This document shows, piece by piece, positions 5,940 through 19,854 of a DNA stretch of 32,755 bases. The DNA comes from a virus. The translations under genes and the position numbers were made by a program. The first letter of the stretch is position 1, and every line of letters starts with the position of its first letter. The notes below the pieces were generated by a model that was not told the DNA's origin, made no database searches, and worked only from the letters and a program-made list of their open reading frames with translations. Where the stretch lies: IMG/VR virus record IMGVR_UViG_3300046163_000105, positions 1-32,755 of that record; one strand, given 5' to 3'.

Positions 5940-6185
5940 ATGAATACATCTGGAGTAACCGTTCGCGAAATTGTGGCGCAAAAATTTGATCTCAACGTGA
6001 ATGAACTCTCGCATGAGACGTCTTTCATTCAAGATCTCGGCGCGAACAGCCTTGATAAAATTGAGCTGGTCATGCGTTTAGAAGAGGCGTTTGAGCTTGA
6101 AATTAAAGATGCAGAGTCTGAGGAAATCATAACTGTTGGTGACGCAGAGGCATTTGTTCAAAGAGCCTTGAGCGCTAAACGCTAA
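5940..6185 (+). CDS. acpP-like: Acyl carrier protein
   Basis: An 81-residue acidic protein with an ideal AGGAGG ribosome site seven bases before the ATG at 5940; in-frame ATGs further upstream lack such a site. The motif 'DLGANSLDKIELVMRLEE' holds Ser37, the expected site for 4'-phosphopantetheine. The helices before and after ('VREIVAQKF', 'FELEIKDAE') match AcpP-type carriers of fatty-acid synthesis. Cellular ACPs carry acyl chains as thioesters for lipid synthesis and also bind enzymes such as acyltransferases. The gene is on the + strand between the tail terminator and DUF6441 genes, and its 3' end overlaps the DUF6441 stop by 11 bp. Its frame is intact and its base composition is nearer to the bactofilin gene than to its phage neighbours. 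Confidence 0.93.
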   Translation: MNTSGVTVREIVAQKFDLNVNELSHETSFIQDLGANSLDKIELVMRLEEAFELEIKDAESEEIITVGDAEAFVQRALSAKR

Positions 6186-6807
6186 ACCTTTCGAGCCAGT
6201 TCGCCACGATCAGCCCAGGTACCGCTGCCTGCACCCGATCAGCATCCCGCGCCAGATTGAGCCGCTTCGCTAGTTTCACCTGCGGCACCAAAAGAAAGAT
6301 CGGAACTGTACTTCGTCCACGACCCGATTTTGAGCGAGACGCCACGCCCAGTCCGCGATTGTTGAGCCGGCCATCTGCCACCAGCAAGCTTGGACCGCTC
6401 CGCCGATAGACAAACCGCAACCGCAGACCCCGCCGCCGCTCCCATTCGCCTGGGGTCAGCGCCTTGCCGCGCGCGCCCTTACCGGCTGCCGGCGTTGGGA
6501 TAGCAAGCCAGAACCCGTCCTTTGAGCGGATCAATGGTCCGGTGTCGTGGGCCCCGATGATTTGGGGTGCATTCGACCAGACCAGAGCTGCGGCCTTCAA
6601 ACTTTCCCCGGTTTTCGGATAGGTTTGGCTCCGGATCGAATTCGACAATCGCCGACCGAGGCCAGCTTGAGTGATCTGCCCGCGCCATGCGGTTTTCAGG
6701 TCCGTGCCCGCTGCACGCATCGCAGTGCTGACAGCCTTTTCCCCGGCTTTCACCTCGTCTGCCATCACGGCAATGAGGTCGGGTTTGATATCAAGGCCAA
6801 GTTTCAT
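6175..6807 (-). CDS. DUF6441 phage virion-assembly protein
   Basis: A 210-residue basic protein with 'FWLAIPTPAAGKG', 'GEWERRRGLRLRFVYRR' and 'VPIFLLVPQVKL', the conserved blocks of the DUF6441 family found in lambda-like prophages of alphaproteobacteria. By position, after the head-tail joining gene and before the tail terminator, it probably acts like lambda gpZ, a minor tail protein that helps head-tail connection; that role is inference. Its start overlaps the end of the preceding gene by four bases. The frame is intact. Confidence 0.75.
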   Translation of the reverse strand: MKLGLDIKPDLIAVMADEVKAGEKAVSTAMRAAGTDLKTAWRGQITQAGLGRRLSNSIRSQTYPKTGESLKAAALVWSNAPQIIGAHDTGPLIRSKDGFWLAIPTPAAGKGARGKALTPGEWERRRGLRLRFVYRRSGPSLLVADGRLNNRGLGVASRSKSGRGRSTVPIFLLVPQVKLAKRLNLARDADRVQAAVPGLIVANWLERFSV

Positions 6808-11384: not shown

Positions 11385-14300
11385 TCACCCCATGTAAGTC
11401 GACCGCATTGTCCGCCTCCGCGCAGACGGGCGCGGCGATGATTTCACAGCCACGTCACCCGCTGGCCCGCTAGTTTCGACCGCGAGCTGTCGCTCCAACT
11501 CGGCCCACCGCGCTTCCGACCAGCGGTCCGCACCGGCAATCCAAGCAGCTGCGCGCGCATATACCCGGCAATCCAGCGCCTCATTGCGCTCACGCAGCTT
11601 TTGCCATTCGAGCTTTGCAAATCCGCGCTTGTTCTTAACGGTGACCAGCTGCTCAGCCGTCAGCTGCTTGAGCCATTCACTGTCGGCCCAATTTGGCAGA
11701 TGCACTGTTCCCGCTGGAAACGAAGATCCCGCGGTGATTTCCTCTGGCGTCGGCCGATCCTGGCGCAGGAAACGATAGGTTTCCGCTTTGAAGGTCGAGG
11801 TTGCCACCGACCAGAGCCGCGCACCGCGCCGCAGCCGCTTGCCGCCAATCGTGGCATCCACAAAGGTTGGTCCCGTCACCGGGCTTGCGCGGTTGAACCC
11901 CTCAAGTCCCTTGACCGGTGCGACCTGTCCAAACCCCATCTGCCGCGCCCAGCCGTAGACCGCGCTGGTCTCATAGCCTGTATCGATCGCCAGTTTTGCA
12001 ATGCTCAGGTGCTGGCCGCTGGCGTGTTGCCAAGTCTGCCCCAAAAGCTCGGAGAGTTTCTGCCAGCATGCCGAAGCTCCGGGACCACCCTCAATAACAA
12101 CATGATCGATGAGCCAACTTTGCAGCCCCCTACCCCAGGCCCAGACATCAACCTCAATCCGGTCCTTTTGAACATCCGCGCCTGCTGTCAGAAACAACCC
12201 ATCGGCCGGCACAGTGCCGGGTGTCCACTCTTCCTTCTGCCCCTGCAGGCGTTGCCAGTCGGGTGCCTCACCACTTTCCATCCAGGTCTCACCCAGCGAT
12301 GTGTTGATGAAGGTCTTCATCATATCATCACCGCCAGCCCGCGCCGACAGGTAGGTTTTGACCATCGCAGCCAATCGAACCCAAGGCGAATAAAGCTCGT
12401 TAAGATGGAACCCGGCTGTGCCCGCAAAGGGCTGCTCAGCAACCCAGTGCCCCTTTGACACTGCCGCCCAGCGGACCTCGTCGCGCCAAGCTGCATCGCA
12501 GTCAACGCAGTGATACCGTGCAGTGTCCGGCTTGTGGCCGCCATCCTCGCCCTTGTCCCATTTGACCTGTGGCCAGATCAGGATTTGATCATACCCACAG
12601 TCGGGACATGGCACCCAGAAACGGCGCTGATCACTTTCCTCAAACGCCGTCTCGATCCGGCTCGCGCCCTTGTTCGTCGGCGTTGAGACCAGCACGATCT
12701 TGCGGTTCCAGAACGTCACGGTGCGCTTTCTTGCAAGGTTGACCGGATCGCCCTCGGCCCCCGCGCTGAACGGGTAGCGATCGACCTCATCACAAAGCAG
12801 CAACCGGATCGGACGACTTGCCAGACCAGAAGGTGCGTTGGCACCGACAATGGTCAGGTGGCCACCCGGAAACCGTTTGTGCAGGATCTTGTTGTTGCCA
12901 TCCCGCGATTTGGGGTCGGCAATCTTGTCCCGCAAACAAGGCGTATCTCGCGCCATCGGCGAGAAGCGGTCCTTCGACCAGGTTTCAGCATCGCGCTCTG
13001 TCGGCATCACCACCATGATCGGTGCCGGGTCCTGGTCGACGTGGTAGCCGACGGCGTTATTGACCATCTCCGTGTTATGCGTTGGGATCATGGTGCGTCC
13101 GGCCAGATACAGCCTGTTGGGGCTATCTACCTGGATGCAGCGCACAGGGACGCTATCGACCGGCTCGACAGCGACAATACGGCGCCGCTTGGTTTCCGTT
13201 GTCCGTCGTCCCGTGCGTGAGACCTGGCGCGCGCGCTTCCTTGCCAGTCGGAACACCGGCGTGTCGTCATAGATCATGAAGGAAAACCGGGTCGCGGGGT
13301 TTCCAAGACGCCGTTCGCCATCGATCACCACCGTCGGATGCTTGTCGACGGCGGTGAACTTAATGCCCAAGGAGGCAAGAAGCTCGCCGAAGCCCTCGGC
13401 CAGACGCAGATGAACCGTGATGAACTCGCAGCGACCGCATTCAGCGATATAGCCGTCCGTGTCCATCAGCCCCTGAAGGAGAGCCAAGCGCTGATCTATC
13501 GACACGCGAAGGTAGGCCGGCGGTATGTGTTTACCGGTTTCTGGCGTCTTTCGATCCTTGGCCAGCCCCATCTCCCGCAAGCGCAGGCTGAACGGCTTTC
13601 CGTCTTCCAGAACTGGATCAACGGGAAGGCCGTGCTTCCACTGCATTGAAAACTGCCGCCCACATTCCGCGCATTGCCCATTCCCATGGCGCCCCAGCAC
13701 ATCCATGTCATGGCCGCGGCGACACATATTGTCGGGCCAAGGCAGTATCGGCTTCAGCGTCAGGATGTGCGGCACCCGTTTGTCCTTCGACTTGACCTCA
13801 ACCTCCATGCCGCAGGCGCGTAGGTGATCGGCGATTTCAAGATCATCCTGATGGCAGGTGATCTGTGAGCCGTAGCTGTGGCCGTCCCCAAGCCAGACGC
13901 CCAAGGCGTAAGGCGGGATCGGCAATGCCTGTTCGGGCAGTTGAAGCGGCGCAGCCACCGGGATAGCGTATCGGTTCCGTTTCGTCCTCCCGTAGTAGTG
14001 CGCTGTCTCAGCAATCTCCTTCGTCGTCAGGACCGCCCGGTGGATCATCATGAAACAGGTCCCTCAACGCGTCCTGCGCGCGTACTGGTGTGTCGCTGTC
14101 GACCGCCCAGAGGTGATCGGCATCCGCGACGATCGAACTACCGTCCGAAAACCGTACCCGGTAGCAGCGCCGGTTGCGCATCACATCCGTCGCGCCCGTG
14201 ACACGGCAAGGCGCGCCAGTTTCGTCAAAAAGAATGTCGCCGACCTGCACGTCGGCCATCGTGGTCCACCCCGTGGGCGTCGCCAGCGGCGTATCGAGTG

Positions 14301-14544
14301 CCAACGCCTTACCCACCTGTGAACTGGACATGATCACGACAGTTTCTGTCGCCGCGTCCGAGACTGCCTCCATGATCCCGCGCTGGTATTCGGCGCGGCT
14401 TGTCCGCCATTGGCCAGGCTCGGCACTGGCCTCAGAACTCAGCCGCCGGTTCTGGTCCGCCCAATCGCTGATCGTTAGGTCCGGCGGTGGTTTCAGAACC
14501 GCTAGTGCCCTTGCCACCGTCCGTTTCAGGATCGCTGAGCCCAT
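11385..14544 (-). pseudogene. Terminase large subunit (lambda gpA family) carrying an intein, frameshifted
   Basis: The likely start is the ATG at 14544 (MGSAILKRTVARALA), inside the end of the small-subunit gene. The Walker A motif 'SSSQVGK' at 14325-14308 is interrupted directly after its Lys by an intein (14307-13074); the motif resumes 'TEMVNNAVGY'. After splicing, TerL would be about 640 residues, with Walker B 'LLLCDEVDRYP', two CxxC pairs of a zinc ribbon ('CPDCGY', 'CVDCDA') and a nuclease domain beginning near 'TAGADVQKDRIEVDVW'. It packages DNA and cuts it at cos or pac sites. An extra base near 14046-14050, within the intein, puts the N- and C-terminal halves in different frames, so no full-length precursor is made without correction or slippage. 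Confidence 0.9.
13074..14307 (-). other. Class 3-like intein with LAGLIDADG endonuclease in TerL Walker A
   Basis: The intein begins with Ala ('ALALDTPLATPTGWTTM') instead of Cys or Ser and ends 'MIPTHN', followed by Thr. The block B segment ends 'ADHLW', supplying the Trp; block F reads 'VRCIQVDS', supplying the Cys; block G reads 'PTHN', supplying the Thr two before the terminal Asn. This Trp-Cys-Thr set with a non-nucleophilic first residue is the published signature of class 3 inteins, in which the block F Cys starts splicing. Two LAGLIDADG motifs are visible, 'YALGVWLGDGHSYGS' and 'LALLQGLMDTDGYI', with a Cys/His segment between them. Removing one T near 14048 gives a 411-residue intein; as sequenced it is split. 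Confidence 0.9.
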
Positions 14545-15028
14545 CAATGTCAGGGTCGGTTTTAAATTCAATGTCTGGCTCTGCGAGATCATCAAGCACC
14601 TCGCGAATGGCGGCACGAATAAGGTTACGGGTATCTCCGACTGTGGATTGCTCAAATACCTGTGGAGCCAGCCGGTCAGGCAGCGCCAACAGACGGGTTC
14701 TCAAAAGCGCCAGTACGGCGATCCAAGCCGCTTCAACCTGGTCGGCTGCAATCAGAGATCGGCGCTTTTCTTTCGCTTCCATTTCCGCAAGGTCGGCGCG
14801 GGCCCGGATAAAGCGCGCCCGTTCGGCGGCATAGTCGGGCGCACCCGCCTGCGCCTTCAGCGCCTGATCTCGCAGGTAGCGCACATATCCACGCACCGAC
14901 CCGATCAGATCATACTGACCGCGCTCCGCCTTCGGGATCACCCCCTCCCGGCTCAGCTGCTGAACCCTGCGCTCCGACAGATCAAGCAGCTTTGCGATCA
15001 CACCGATGGATTGGGTGGCTGCTGACAT
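14432..15028 (-). CDS. Terminase small subunit
   Basis: A 198-residue protein starting 'MSAATQSIGVIAKLLDLSER'. An N-terminal winged-helix region (about 8-50: 'RVQQLSREGVIPK', 'YDLIGSVRGYVRYLRD') fits the Nu1-type DNA-binding domain that recognises the packaging site. A charged coiled-coil-like helix follows ('ARADLAEMEAKEKRRS'). The acidic, low-complexity C-terminus would contact TerL. It is the first gene of the late operon; its end overlaps the TerL start by about 113 bp. An AGGAT ribosome site lies eight bases before the ATG. Confidence 0.88.
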   Translation of the reverse strand: MSAATQSIGVIAKLLDLSERRVQQLSREGVIPKAERGQYDLIGSVRGYVRYLRDQALKAQAGAPDYAAERARFIRARADLAEMEAKEKRRSLIAADQVEAAWIAVLALLRTRLLALPDRLAPQVFEQSTVGDTRNLIRAAIREVLDDLAEPDIEFKTDPDIDGLSDPETDGGKGTSGSETTAGPNDQRLGGPEPAAEF

Positions 15029-15925: not shown

Positions 15926-16277
15926 ATTTGCCCTCTTTGAGAGCTGCCGTGATCTGTGCACGCGTAATACCAAATTGCCGGGACAACGCAGCAGGCTTCA
16001 CACCTGCTTGGATAGACGACCGGATCAAGCCGATCTGTGATTGGGTCAACTGTGACAGGATCGGATCTGGCACGCTTTTGCTTTGCGGCTTGGCTTTCTC
16101 CTTGGGCGCCGTAAGACCGCGTCTGTCCAACTCGGTCGCCAATGCCTCTGCGAGACGCATAATGTCATGCTCAGGTAGATGCTGCAGCGAAGCCGCAAGA
16201 TTTTGCGGCAGCACCGTTTTTGGCACCTCGCCTCCATCAGAGGAGCGGTGCGTGTTAAGATCCTGTTGACGACTCAT
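15924..16277 (-). CDS. Small HTH protein, unknown function
   Basis: Started at 16277 (MSRQQDLNTH) the protein has 117 residues. Its last 35 residues, 'IRSSIQAGVKPAALSRQFG' followed by 'ITRAQITAALKEG', form a helix-turn-helix like the DNA-binding end of Hin-type invertases, but no catalytic domain is present. The middle is polar and charged. It may regulate the early operon or bind phage DNA. Its start lies inside the end of the DUF7220 gene, so it is the last cistron of the methyltransferase operon. Confidence 0.6.
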   Translation of the reverse strand: MSRQQDLNTHRSSDGGEVPKTVLPQNLAASLQHLPEHDIMRLAEALATELDRRGLTAPKEKAKPQSKSVPDPILSQLTQSQIGLIRSSIQAGVKPAALSRQFGITRAQITAALKEGK

Positions 16278-16515
16278 ACATAGAAGTATCGCGCCCTGAC
16301 AATCTTTTGCCAAGACGCTCAAACAAGCGTCGCAGCAGATATCCCCGAGCCAAAGATACGCCGACAAATGCCAAGCCGATCGTCAAATGATCACTCAAGA
16401 CGGCGTCGATGCCAAACAATGGGAACACGACGATTTGCGTCACCACGGCGAGAATATATCCAACAAAAACGTTGGTAATCGCTTCAATCAGCGACATGAG
16501 GCGAGACTGTTTCAT
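16255..16515 (-). CDS. DUF7220-like small membrane protein
   Basis: An 86-residue protein starting 'MKQSRLMSLIEAITNVFVGY'. Two hydrophobic segments (about 14-33 and 43-58) predict membrane insertion, and the C-terminus has 'ARGYLLRRLFERLGKR'. The pattern matches the DUF7220 proteins that are common in alphaproteobacterial phages; no function is known. The start overlaps the stop of the nuclease gene by four bases (ATGA), and the end overlaps the next gene. Confidence 0.7.
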   Translation of the reverse strand: MKQSRLMSLIEAITNVFVGYILAVVTQIVVFPLFGIDAVLSDHLTIGLAFVGVSLARGYLLRRLFERLGKRLSGRDTSMYESSTGS

Positions 16516-17036
16516 GTCTCAAAACCCAAGCGGTTCAGCGCATGACGAAAACTCGCTTCCTGAAACTCCCGGTTCATGCTGCCATTTTGGAGGTAACGTT
16601 CACCGGGTACGCGCAGGGCAATGGTTTGATTGGAGCAATCAATGACCGGCAGGTAGGCGATTGCCTGCCTATCGAGTGCGACAAGGGCATAAAGGTCGAA
16701 CGCATTCTCTGGATACCGACGCCGCCCACCTTTGCCAGCGCGTCGAAGCTGGAACAAATACCCGGGCGTGACCCTTGTCTTCGGATCATGGTTTTTCGGC
16801 TTCCGGGTTGATTTGACCTGCACGCGCAAAAGCGTTCCGTCAATATCCACTAGAATGTCATATGGTAGACCCTGATCGCTCAAAAACGCCCTATAGCCGC
16901 TCATGATGAGGTCGGCGCACACCAAGTGCTCGGCGGCCTTGCCAACCTCCAGATCATGACTGCATTCGACATCTGGCCTGTCAAATTCGGTGTCGGGCAG
17001 ATCAAATCCCAGGTGTTCAAACAGCGATTGCTGCAT
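16512..17036 (-). CDS. PD-(D/E)XK nuclease-fold protein
   Basis: A 174-residue protein with a GGAGGG ribosome site. The core is 'GKAAEHLVCADLIMSGYRAF' (helix with Glu36), 'GLPYDILVDI' (Asp60) and 'RVQVKST' (Gln73, Lys75). That is the PD-(D/E)XK nuclease pattern in the variant seen in group I intron-associated and related endonucleases. It may cut DNA in recombination, or act with the methyltransferase whose gene overlaps its start by 20 bp. The overlap implies coupled translation and suggests a restriction-modification-like pair, but no specificity domain is visible. A structural or resolvase role is an alternative. Confidence 0.7.
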   Translation of the reverse strand: MQQSLFEHLGFDLPDTEFDRPDVECSHDLEVGKAAEHLVCADLIMSGYRAFLSDQGLPYDILVDIDGTLLRVQVKSTRKPKNHDPKTRVTPGYLFQLRRAGKGGRRRYPENAFDLYALVALDRQAIAYLPVIDCSNQTIALRVPGERYLQNGSMNREFQEASFRHALNRLGFET

Positions 17037-18273
17037 GGCCTACCCTCCGGTTCTGCGCGACGGCCTCGAAGCTCTGCCCCGTTTCCAGCAATTGTGTCTC
17101 TCGGCCGGTAAACTCTTGCCAACGGCGAACGATGACATCGACATATTTCGGATCGAGTTCGATCAACGACGCGTGGCGCCCCGTCTTTTCCGCAGCGATC
17201 AGCGTCGTGCCGCTGCCGCCAAAAGGGTCGAACACAAGATCGCCCTTACGGCTGGAGTTCCGGATGGCGCGTTCGACCAGCGCCACCGGCTTCATGGTGG
17301 GGTGCAGATCATTCTTTGATGGCCGCTGAATGTTCCAGACATCGCCCTGGTCCCGATCGCCACACCAGTGGCGTTTCACGCCCTCAGGCCAGCCATAGAG
17401 GATCGGCTCGTATTGCCGCTGATAATCAGCGCGGCCCAGTGTGAAGCGGTCCTTCGCCCAGATGATGAAGGTCGACCAGTGACCGCCTGCGGACTTGAAT
17501 GCCGCCTGCAGCGTCTGCAACTCGCTGGACGACATGCAAATGTAAACGGCGCCGTCGGTGTGCGCGTTGATCAGCACGCAGGCGTCGTAGAGAAACTGCC
17601 CGAATGCATCGCCTAAGGCATCGTTCTTGATACGACGGCCCTTGCCCGCTTTCTCAGCCCCAACGCCACCAGCATAATCAACGTTATAGGGTGGATCGCA
17701 AAAACAGAGATCTGCCTTCACGCCCCCGAGTATTTTTTCGTAATCTGTCGCAACCGTGCTGTCACCGCAAAGCAATCGATGATTGCCGAGCAGCCAAAGA
17801 TCGCCGGGACGGCTGATCGGGTCCTCAGGCGTCTCGGGAATTTCGTCCTCACCCTCCTGCGGGCCGGTGCCGTCATCAAGGCTGTTCATCAGCGCGTTCA
17901 ATTCATCATCAGTAAAACCTGTCAGCCCGAGATTAAAATCCGCCTCCAGCAAATCCGCCAGTTCGAGGTTCAGCAAGTCCTTGTCCCACTCGGCGTTCTC
18001 GCTTGAGCGGTTGTCCATGATCCGGAAGGCGCGGGCTTGGGCCTCGGTCAAACCCTTGGCCACATGCACCGGCGCAGTCTTAAGACCGAGTTTGCGCGCT
18101 GCTTCGAGCCGGGTGTGACCGGCCAGAACCACCATCGCCTCGTCGACGACGATGGGCTGTCGCCAGCCAAACTCCTGGATCGAGGCTGCCACCGTGGCGA
18201 TAGCCTGCGCGTTGTTACGCGGGTTGCGCGCATAGGGAATGATCTGCTCAAGCGGCAGGTCTAAAACGTCCAT
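17017..18273 (-). CDS. ParB-N domain / DNA methyltransferase fusion
   Basis: Started at 18273 (MDVLDLPLEQIIPYARNPRN) behind AAGGACA, the protein has 418 residues. Residues about 1-125 are a ParB/Srx-like domain with 'VVLAGHTRLEAARKLG'. Residues about 155-395 are an N6-adenine or N4-cytosine methyltransferase with 'DPPYNVDY' (193-200) and the SAM-binding motif 'FDPFGGSGTT' (348-357). Such fusions are common in prophages and methylate phage or host DNA, often to evade restriction or regulate genes; the target cannot be read from sequence. It leads an operon with the PD-(D/E)XK gene. A cluster of repeats lies directly upstream. Confidence 0.93.
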   Translation of the reverse strand: MDVLDLPLEQIIPYARNPRNNAQAIATVAASIQEFGWRQPIVVDEAMVVLAGHTRLEAARKLGLKTAPVHVAKGLTEAQARAFRIMDNRSSENAEWDKDLLNLELADLLEADFNLGLTGFTDDELNALMNSLDDGTGPQEGEDEIPETPEDPISRPGDLWLLGNHRLLCGDSTVATDYEKILGGVKADLCFCDPPYNVDYAGGVGAEKAGKGRRIKNDALGDAFGQFLYDACVLINAHTDGAVYICMSSSELQTLQAAFKSAGGHWSTFIIWAKDRFTLGRADYQRQYEPILYGWPEGVKRHWCGDRDQGDVWNIQRPSKNDLHPTMKPVALVERAIRNSSRKGDLVFDPFGGSGTTLIAAEKTGRHASLIELDPKYVDVIVRRWQEFTGRETQLLETGQSFEAVAQNRRVGHAAIAV

Positions 18274-18295: not shown

Positions 18296-18421
18296 CGAAA
18301 CGAAACGGGTTCGGGCCGCGAAACGAAATGGGGTCCGAGGGCCATTTCGTTTCAGGCGTGGTTTGTCAGGCCCTTAGGCCCTTGTTTCTTTGGGTTTGCG
18401 TGCAAAGCGAAACGAAACGGG
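18296..18421. repeat. Four-copy 12-14 bp repeat cluster upstream of the methyltransferase
   Basis: CGAAACGAAACGGG occurs at 18296-18309 and 18408-18421, and as CGAAACGAAATGGG at 18319-18332. An inverted copy, CCATTTCGTTTC at 18342-18353, pairs with the second copy as a 12-bp perfect stem with a 10-bp loop. The cluster begins 22 bp upstream of the methyltransferase start. Rest of the gap (18422-18744) is AT-richer and holds no convincing gene. Confidence 0.75.
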
Positions 18422-18744: not shown

Positions 18745-19170
18745 TCAAGCGGTACGCTGAATAACATAATCCATCGACCGCTTGCGCGGCACAGTTCGGC
18801 CGTTCAAGCGCCAAACAACCACGGCAAGCCCATACTCGTGCCGCCGACTGGCCGTGGCCCGGCTGACACCATGCGCCCAGCAGATCCCCTTCCAGGCCTT
18901 GCGGTTGGCGCGGGCCCAGAGGATCTCACCGATGTCCTTATCCACCCACCGCAGCCAGAGCATGGCCTCATCGGCCTGCGTAATCATCCGTGGTGAGGGC
19001 AGTGGCTTTTTCATCCGCTGCTCCTGCCCAACTTGATCGGCGAAGGTCGAGACATATTCCGGCCAGGCGCTGACATAGCCCTGCGGGCGCACAGGCGGCA
19101 TGGACCGCATTACGTCCGCCGCGAGGTCCAAGCGGTCGGCCACCATTGCCCGCGTCCATTCATCGGCCAT
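18745..19170 (-). CDS. DUF6362 phage protein
   Basis: Started at 19170 (MADEWTRAMVADRLDLAADV) the protein has 141 residues. The C-terminal half contains 'LWARANRKAWKGICWAHGVS' then 'RATASRRHEYGLAVVVWRLN', which reads as a helix-turn-helix and is the DUF6362 signature in alphaproteobacterial prophages. A DNA-binding or regulatory role is plausible, but function is unknown. It overlaps the end of the upstream small gene by 11 bp and is followed by a hairpin and the repeat-rich gap. Confidence 0.8.
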   Translation of the reverse strand: MADEWTRAMVADRLDLAADVMRSMPPVRPQGYVSAWPEYVSTFADQVGQEQRMKKPLPSPRMITQADEAMLWLRWVDKDIGEILWARANRKAWKGICWAHGVSRATASRRHEYGLAVVVWRLNGRTVPRKRSMDYVIQRTA

Positions 19171-19372
19171 GACGTACCTCCCTGCCCTGCGGGCGTTTGC
19201 CATAGAGTTTCGTTCCCAGCTGTTCGACCAATTCGCGCTCGGGCCAGGTCAGCCGGTGGTCCTCCACGCTCACAGCCAGCACGCCTTGGTCGTACCAGCC
19301 GTCGCGCTTGACCCGGTCAGGGTCACGGCGATGACCACCGTAGCCGCGAGGTGTAAACCGCATGCCACTCAT
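19160..19372 (-). CDS. Small phage protein, unknown function
   Basis: A 70-residue basic protein starting 'MSGMRFTPRGYGGHRRDPDR', then 'WPERELVEQLGTKLYGKRP'. I do not recognise a named family, though similar proteins occur beside RuvC-like genes in related prophages. Its start overlaps the resolvase stop by four bases (ATGA), so it is translated in the same operon. No membrane segment or metal motif is visible. Confidence 0.6.
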   Translation of the reverse strand: MSGMRFTPRGYGGHRRDPDRVKRDGWYDQGVLAVSVEDHRLTWPERELVEQLGTKLYGKRPQGREVRHGR

Positions 19373-19854
19373 GCCACACCCCCCTTCGTCTCTAGCGCCC
19401 AGAGCAGGATCGCGATGGCGTCCGCCTCGTTGTCATCTGCAGGGTTGAAGCCGCGCTGGCGGGCAGCGTCGATCATAGCCTGCTTGGGCGCGTTGCCCTT
19501 GCCAGATGCGTGTTTTTTGATGGTTCCCACCGGGACACCTTGGTACGGCACCCCGCGCAACTCACCCCAGCTGGTTAGAACGGCTAGGAGGCCCCCAAAG
19601 ACATGGGCTGCATCTGTGCCTGCGTGACGACGGACTTCTTCGTAATAGATCGCTCTATCGGACCGCTAAGTCGGTCCAGCTCTGTCAGCCAGTTGGTGAA
19701 GCGCAGATAGCGCATGCCACCCCCATCATAGCGGCTGGGCTTAAAGCTGACAGTGCCACTGGTGATCAGGCCGTCAAAGTCGCGAATGGCCCAGCCGGTG
19801 GTGGTCCCAGATCGAGGGCAAGATGGTGCGGTGTGTGTGTGTGGATTGGGTCAT
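19369..19854 (-). pseudogene. RuvC-like Holliday junction resolvase, at least three frameshifts
   Basis: The start at 19854 (MTQSTHTHRTIL) follows AGGAGG. One missing base at about 19816-19821 and another at about 19806-19808 hide the motif 'ALDLGTTTGWAIRDFDG'; a third near 19649-19652 hides 'IYYEEVRRHAG'. The intact tail 'VPVGTIKKHASGKGNAPKQ' ends with 'NEADAIAILLWAL'. Corrected, it is a RuvC-like RNase H-fold protein of about 162 residues with the expected acidic residues in each block. Such phage resolvases cut branched DNA before packaging. As sequenced it cannot be active. Confidence 0.8.

Follow-up and report, generated by a model that had tools for sequence, protein, structure and literature searches.

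The closest described counterparts of the locus analyzed here are type II restriction–modification (R-M) systems, with which it shares a small PD-(D/E)XK nuclease gene adjoining and overlapping an amino-methyltransferase (MTase) gene, and an MTase that can occur alone while the nuclease rarely does. It differs from them in that the nuclease is I-Ssp6803I-like and that its core is conserved beside several MTase classes. Among type II restriction endonucleases, a conserved nuclease core with a changing class of MTase is unusual. The homing endonuclease I-Ssp6803I (PDB 2ost, PDDEXK_5) has its fold and aligned core in common with our nuclease; however, no intron or intein was found around the latter, and its family is mostly flanked by MTases.

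Several named phages carry parts of the arrangement. The MTases of Acidithiobacillus phage AcaML1 (62% identity) and Wolbachia phage WO (50% identity) belong to the same phrog_498 ParB_N-N6_N4 family, but their records contain no nuclease match and none is annotated beside the MTase. In Klebsiella phage KO-TP1 (gp37–gp39) a PDDEXK_5 gene overlaps a DNA MTase gene, although there the nuclease comes first and two DNA MTases follow; for L104, a close relative of KO-TP1, the E. coli matches to its first MTase are annotated as MT-A70. A preprint lists 80 PDDEXK_5 genes among the homing endonucleases of huge phages, and the words methyltransferase and restriction are absent from its main text (PMC12363816). 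The accessible portions of an R-M review (PMC12707154) and of PMC8989522 describe no such nuclease–MTase pair, and no paper describing PDDEXK_5 nuclease–MTase pairing was found in the part of the open-access literature covered; print outside it may differ. What is new here is the family-wide pairing of the PDDEXK_5 nuclease with MTases, which we regard, with slightly better than even confidence, as an R-M-like cassette of a new variety.

The stretch of DNA analyzed (the window; 32,755 nucleotides) is a virus record with genes for portal, capsid and GpA terminase; it also encodes an S24-type repressor and a serine recombinase, which mark the phage as temperate. The − strand is transcribed in the order DUF6362, MTase, nuclease, DUF7220, an ORF with a weak helix-turn-helix (HTH) match and terminase genes, with the MTase/nuclease operon situated between prim-pol and terminase genes. 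The features are as follows:

19369-19850, − strand: RuvC-like resolvase gene (in more than one frame in the window record, open in relatives; context)
18745-19203, − strand: DUF6362 protein, upstream neighbor (domain match; context only)
17017-18273, − strand: ParB_N/N6_N4 MTase, 418 aa (Pfam, phrog_498)
17043-17048, − strand: GGAGGG within the MTase gene, candidate ribosome-binding site for the nuclease (putative role)
17017-17036, − strand: 20-bp overlap of the MTase 3' end and the nuclease 5' end (ORF coordinates)
16512-17036, − strand: PDDEXK_5 nuclease of I-Ssp6803I type, 174 aa (Pfam, structure comparison)
16255-16515, − strand: DUF7220 small protein (domain match)

The 20-bp overlap of MTase stop and nuclease start had been reported in a first-pass annotation of this DNA, with which our coordinates and strand agree; the two genes are read in different frames across it. 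The GGAGGG lies 6 bases upstream of the nuclease ATG, and there is a 4-bp overlap between the nuclease stop and the ATG of DUF7220. Upstream of the MTase start at 18273 an ATG at 18345 is likewise open, and relatives align from 18273. The broken frame of the RuvC-like gene is either a real lesion or an assembly error.

Elsewhere in the window, the GpA terminase gene (11385-14655, − strand) contains an intein-like insert that extends across two ORFs, 14008-14655 and 11385-14051, which differ in frame and overlap by 44 bp; LAGLIDADG_3 is in the second. 'Intein' is here a reading of the sequence, with no profile match. Because this two-ORF layout is repeated in L002, L003 and L138 (80–100% identity), the insert looks like a conserved split intein or a programmed frameshift. 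Terminase matches in L001, L005, L006, L007, L015 and L119 skip it.

The window MTase matched Pfam N6_N4_Mtase (E = 1.6e-27) and ParB_N (E = 1.5e-7), phrog_498 over near-full length (6.6e-160) and the PADLOC type II MTase model (3.6e-155). Its motifs, both intact, run in the order DPPY then FDPFGGSGTT, which we take to be that of the beta class, and we assume from the DPPY that the enzyme is probably an N6-adenine MTase.

The window nuclease matched Pfam PDDEXK_5 (E = 9.6e-8), as did 43 of 43 rows of our family alignment (A8), a set that differs from the 43 nuclease clusters described below and includes five rows from the window's cluster. G32, E36, D60 and Q73 are found in all 43 rows and K75 in 42. 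Q73 replaces the second acidic residue, and Q73-V-K75 aligns with the QVK of I-Ssp6803I, with the same Q aligned in 2ost. An AlphaFold2 model built from the 43 family sequences (mean pLDDT 81.0, pTM 0.75) had I-Ssp6803I as its closest PDB structure (Foldseek E = 2.1e-8; VIA Z 15.7, rmsd 2.6, 138 residues), followed in VIA by a SPARDA nuclease (10.1), the Hjc resolvase (10.0) and Eco15I (8.9); restriction endonucleases such as Eco15I, HinP1I and PvuII rank lower among the matches. VIA-align returned no family closer than I-Ssp6803I, though one might be missing from its set. By alignment and model, the window nuclease is an I-Ssp6803I-type PD-(D/E)XK enzyme whose E-D-Q core is invariant.

The window nuclease matched two PHROGs, both of unknown function. 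Across the 43 aligned nucleases, matches at E 1e-5 were to two PHROGs of unknown function and, in single cases, to regulators; no PHROG of named nuclease function was among them. PADLOC gave a weak homing-endonuclease match only, and NCBIfam no family for the window nuclease. HTH-like inserts occur in the C-terminal half of some family members and may help these to recognize DNA. Selection was estimated for both genes in 18 relatives, of which 11 had dS of 0.45–0.97 and gave dN/dS of 0.05–0.09 for the nuclease and 0.05–0.17 for the MTase, the other seven being too close (L001–L003), too far (L024, L025 and L044) or interrupted (L013, 0.10). From these values, the nuclease is a constrained gene under strong purifying selection.

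The arrangement recurs in close relatives: the MTase lies immediately upstream and runs into the nuclease in 13 of 15 viral relatives (L001–L013) and in six of seven cellular loci. Of the remainder, L014 starts within the nuclease, L015 has a C-terminal nuclease piece only, with no MTase match in the preceding 248 bases, and the cellular locus L027 starts inside the nuclease. Among cellular relatives, those with names belong to Defluviimonas, Marivita, Seohaeicola and a Rhodobacteraceae bacterium; the isolates Seohaeicola saemankumensis DP4N-5 and Defluviimonas nitratireducens MCCC 1A06955 carry the locus. In genomes sampled around G001, the source genome of L024 and itself counted, the nuclease was found in 1 of 398 phylum, 2 of 385 class and 2 of 295 family genomes, that is, in 0, 1 and 1 genomes besides it.

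Some relatives have further peculiarities. L013 combines an open MTase frame with an interrupted nuclease frame; its nuclease gene (6001-6675) contains an insert of ~165 bp, with inverted repeats seen by eye, that closes the frame early. L024 (4739-7528) and L025 contain an overlapping trio of ParB-type MTase, nuclease and C5 MTase, in that order, and the L024 trio sits in a 244-kb Seohaeicola contig.

To describe the nuclease family as a whole, viral and cellular contigs, phage records and genomes were scanned with the nuclease, so that loci were never chosen for their MTase genes; the distant scan covered the best 80 of 119 relatives. This yielded 92 loci with a nuclease ORF, falling into 43 clusters (single linkage, 80% identity). 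A contig found twice was entered once, which removed L032, L034, L036–L043 and the window's own second copy, L016; L015, for which no nuclease ORF was called, lies outside the 92.

A DNA MTase adjoins the nuclease in 36 of the 43 clusters, which hold 85 of the 92 loci; it is on the same strand in 35 clusters and on the opposite strand in one more (L084, scored as paired on that basis). Within the 36, the scoring of L083 as paired is based on a DPPY motif in an ORF that the contig end truncates, and that of L049 on a custom MT-A70 model. By Pfam, the next-downstream ORF is N6_N4_Mtase in 18 of 39 cases and MT-A70 in 9 of 39, and the next-upstream ORF is N6_N4_Mtase in 7 of 40; these tallies name no members, and MTases were assigned to loci by custom HMMs and motifs. 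Among control ORFs at offsets 2–4, at least 4 of 144 had an MTase domain (N6_N4, n = 2; C5, n = 2) among the matches listed, a tally that rests on 25 of 92 families and may miss a few single MTase matches. The difference between 27 of 39 downstream ORFs and 4 of 144 control ORFs, again among the matches listed, had a Fisher p of 6e-19. The MTase is downstream of the nuclease in most clusters and upstream in the window's clade. Where it is downstream, the frames overlap in 27 of 29 cases, genes being called as longest ORFs, and overlaps above ~30 bp (for example, L050 and L067) may reflect the choice of start. Physical linkage of nuclease and DNA MTase genes is therefore present across independent lineages, the opposite of what the first-pass annotation had named as its refuting case, a nuclease widely found without the methylase.

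The nuclease is mostly kept with an MTase, the exceptions being L064, L082 and, in part, L089. No adjacent MTase was recognized in the clusters L064, L089, L018, L033 and L035. A ParB_N-type ORF without an MTase domain lies directly upstream of the nuclease in L071 (674-1132) and L082 (3911-4447). The whole records of L064 (54 kb) and L082 (18 kb) gave no N6_N4, C5 or Dam match; L089 has a C5 fragment only, outside the nuclease's neighbors, and the C5 MTase of the named Bacillus phage L018 lies far from the nuclease. A search of the nuclease-only records for MT-A70 gave no match, but neither did its positive controls. L064, L082, L089 and L018 may be fragments or users of another MTase; L064 is nested among paired nucleases on the tree, as if its MTase had been lost without harm.

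The converse does not hold for the MTase. The first-pass annotation had described prophage methylases of this type as usually orphans, and among the best 80 of 598 relatives of the window MTase in viral contigs, 70 indeed lacked the nuclease in the available flanks (up to 3 kb, some shortened by contig ends). Eight of the 10 nuclease-bearing contigs were already in the nuclease scan; the new ones, L144 and L146, have a nuclease (49% identical) after an MTase of 61–62% identity. In phage records, 266 matched the window MTase (E ≤1e-40) and 2 the nuclease (E ≤1e-3). The nuclease–MTase DNA of L104 was matched by 37 of 5,426 E. coli genomes, in the MTase part only among the matches listed (30 of 37) and with 80% cover of the query in none of the 37; the L104 nuclease had no match in plasmids.

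Gene order after the MTase was compared in 16 of the 80 loci. The nuclease of the window and of its close relatives sits directly between MTase and DUF7220, and in 7 of the 16 loci DUF7220 directly follows the MTase with no nuclease (L119, L138, L121, L126, L127, L131 and L132), including MTases with 91% (L119), 87% (L138) and 80% (L121) identity to that of the window. Other ORFs found after the MTase are a YoeB-type toxin by Pfam (L122; a closely similar ORF in L125), a C5 MTase (L128; a similar ORF in L129), a VanZ-like ORF (L124) and a Bro-N ORF (L137). From these gene orders, we read the position after the MTase as an accessory slot in the relatives. A YoeB toxin ORF and, by eye, a YefM-like antitoxin ORF lie near the MTase in L122 (4223-4842), L125 and L126.

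Partner exchange was followed on a tree of 40 nucleases (L013, L018, L033 and L035 left out, L144 added). Its 36 MTase-bearing rows imply at least four changes among three classes (N6/N4, MT-A70 and ParB-fused), and its 35 rows with a same-strand MTase, upstream in 6, imply three changes of side; the pairing has therefore been re-made several times. Counted over all seven partner labels, with 'no MTase', 'ParB_N only' and 'opposite strand' among them, the tree needs 10 changes; the minimum possible is 6, and shuffling of the labels gave a mean of 19.1, with 0 of 200 shuffles reaching a count this low. As judged from these sequences, MTase class is mostly inherited within nuclease clades and has several times been exchanged with adjacency kept, and the nuclease core is 30–45% identical across changes of class. 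Adjacency that survives such exchanges suggests that nuclease and MTase cooperate, or that the nuclease is tolerated mainly beside an MTase, and is otherwise hard to explain.

An R-M system predicts a nuclease that needs its MTase and an MTase that does not need the nuclease. The observed asymmetry, with the nuclease mostly beside an MTase while 70 of 80 MTases lack the nuclease, strengthens this idea and makes an R-M-like pair the best reading. The catalytic motifs relevant to R-M are intact in both proteins (E36/D60/Q73/K75 in the nuclease; DPPY and FDPFGGSGTT in the MTase). On balance, we somewhat favor the view that MTase and nuclease form a compact, phage-carried R-M-like cassette. In such a cassette the MTase would mark phage and lysogen DNA, probably as an N6-adenine MTase; the nuclease, probably translated by coupling from within the end of the MTase gene, would cut DNA lacking that mark and would be blocked by methylation. 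The presumed benefit is that the lysogen or infected cell excludes competing DNA or other phages. The compact R-M arrangement proposed in the first-pass annotation is thus strengthened as an R-M-like pair by linkage and asymmetry, but some contigs hold the nuclease alone, and the R-M claim is not firm because of these records without a recognized MTase.

Conservation of the nuclease core while the MTase class changes also suggests a more specific form of the R-M-like reading, which we consider rather improbable: the nuclease family could be a plug-in restriction subunit that works with any resident DNA MTase beside it (ParB-fused, small N6/N4, MT-A70 and perhaps C5), the partner giving specificity or safety. 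Such a class would stand apart from classical type II pairs, whose two enzymes have one motif in common.

Among the other explanations, we consider it unlikely that the nuclease acts as a free-standing homing endonuclease, spreading its own cassette and either carrying the neighboring MTase along or landing at MTase genes. Its closest structure and the only solved family member, I-Ssp6803I, is a homing endonuclease, stand-alone PDDEXK_5 genes are classed as such in the part of the preprint available (PMC12363816), and close relatives differ in whether the slot is filled, as homing would have it. However, the MTase partners are of three broad classes and may be upstream or downstream of the nuclease, so no single conserved target gene is apparent, and no RNA family was found in the window at Rfam gathering scores, so it contains no known self-splicing intron.

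We also think it unlikely that the nuclease is a structure-specific replication or packaging enzyme of the Holliday-junction resolvase type, placed with the MTase in a DNA-metabolism operon. The location between prim-pol and terminase genes would suit such a role, as would the archaeal Hjc resolvases in the second tier of structural matches (Z about 10). Yet this role looks filled. Measured from stop to stop, the RuvC-like ORF has at least 158 codons and is open in all of the nuclease-bearing relatives examined (12 of 12), which speaks against a vacancy for a resolvase; it is likewise open in nuclease-less relatives (7 examined, 2 cut by contig ends). Moreover, the nuclease is optional within the same phage group, and a general operon would leave unexplained why MTases occur at +1/−1 and few at ±2 to 4. 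Finally, an orphan MTase and an unrelated nuclease as mere chance neighbors would fit the rarity of the nuclease in the wider MTase family (10 of the best 80 of 598) but are barely credible given 36 of 43 paired clusters with re-pairing, and are contradicted by the offset control among the matches listed.

If the R-M-like reading is true, many phages would be equipped with restriction systems of their own, based on a nuclease family with a homing endonuclease as its only solved member. Phage 'orphan' MTases beside such a nuclease would then be halves of defense or competition systems, and the family could be used to ask how a single nuclease scaffold adjusts to different methylation partners.
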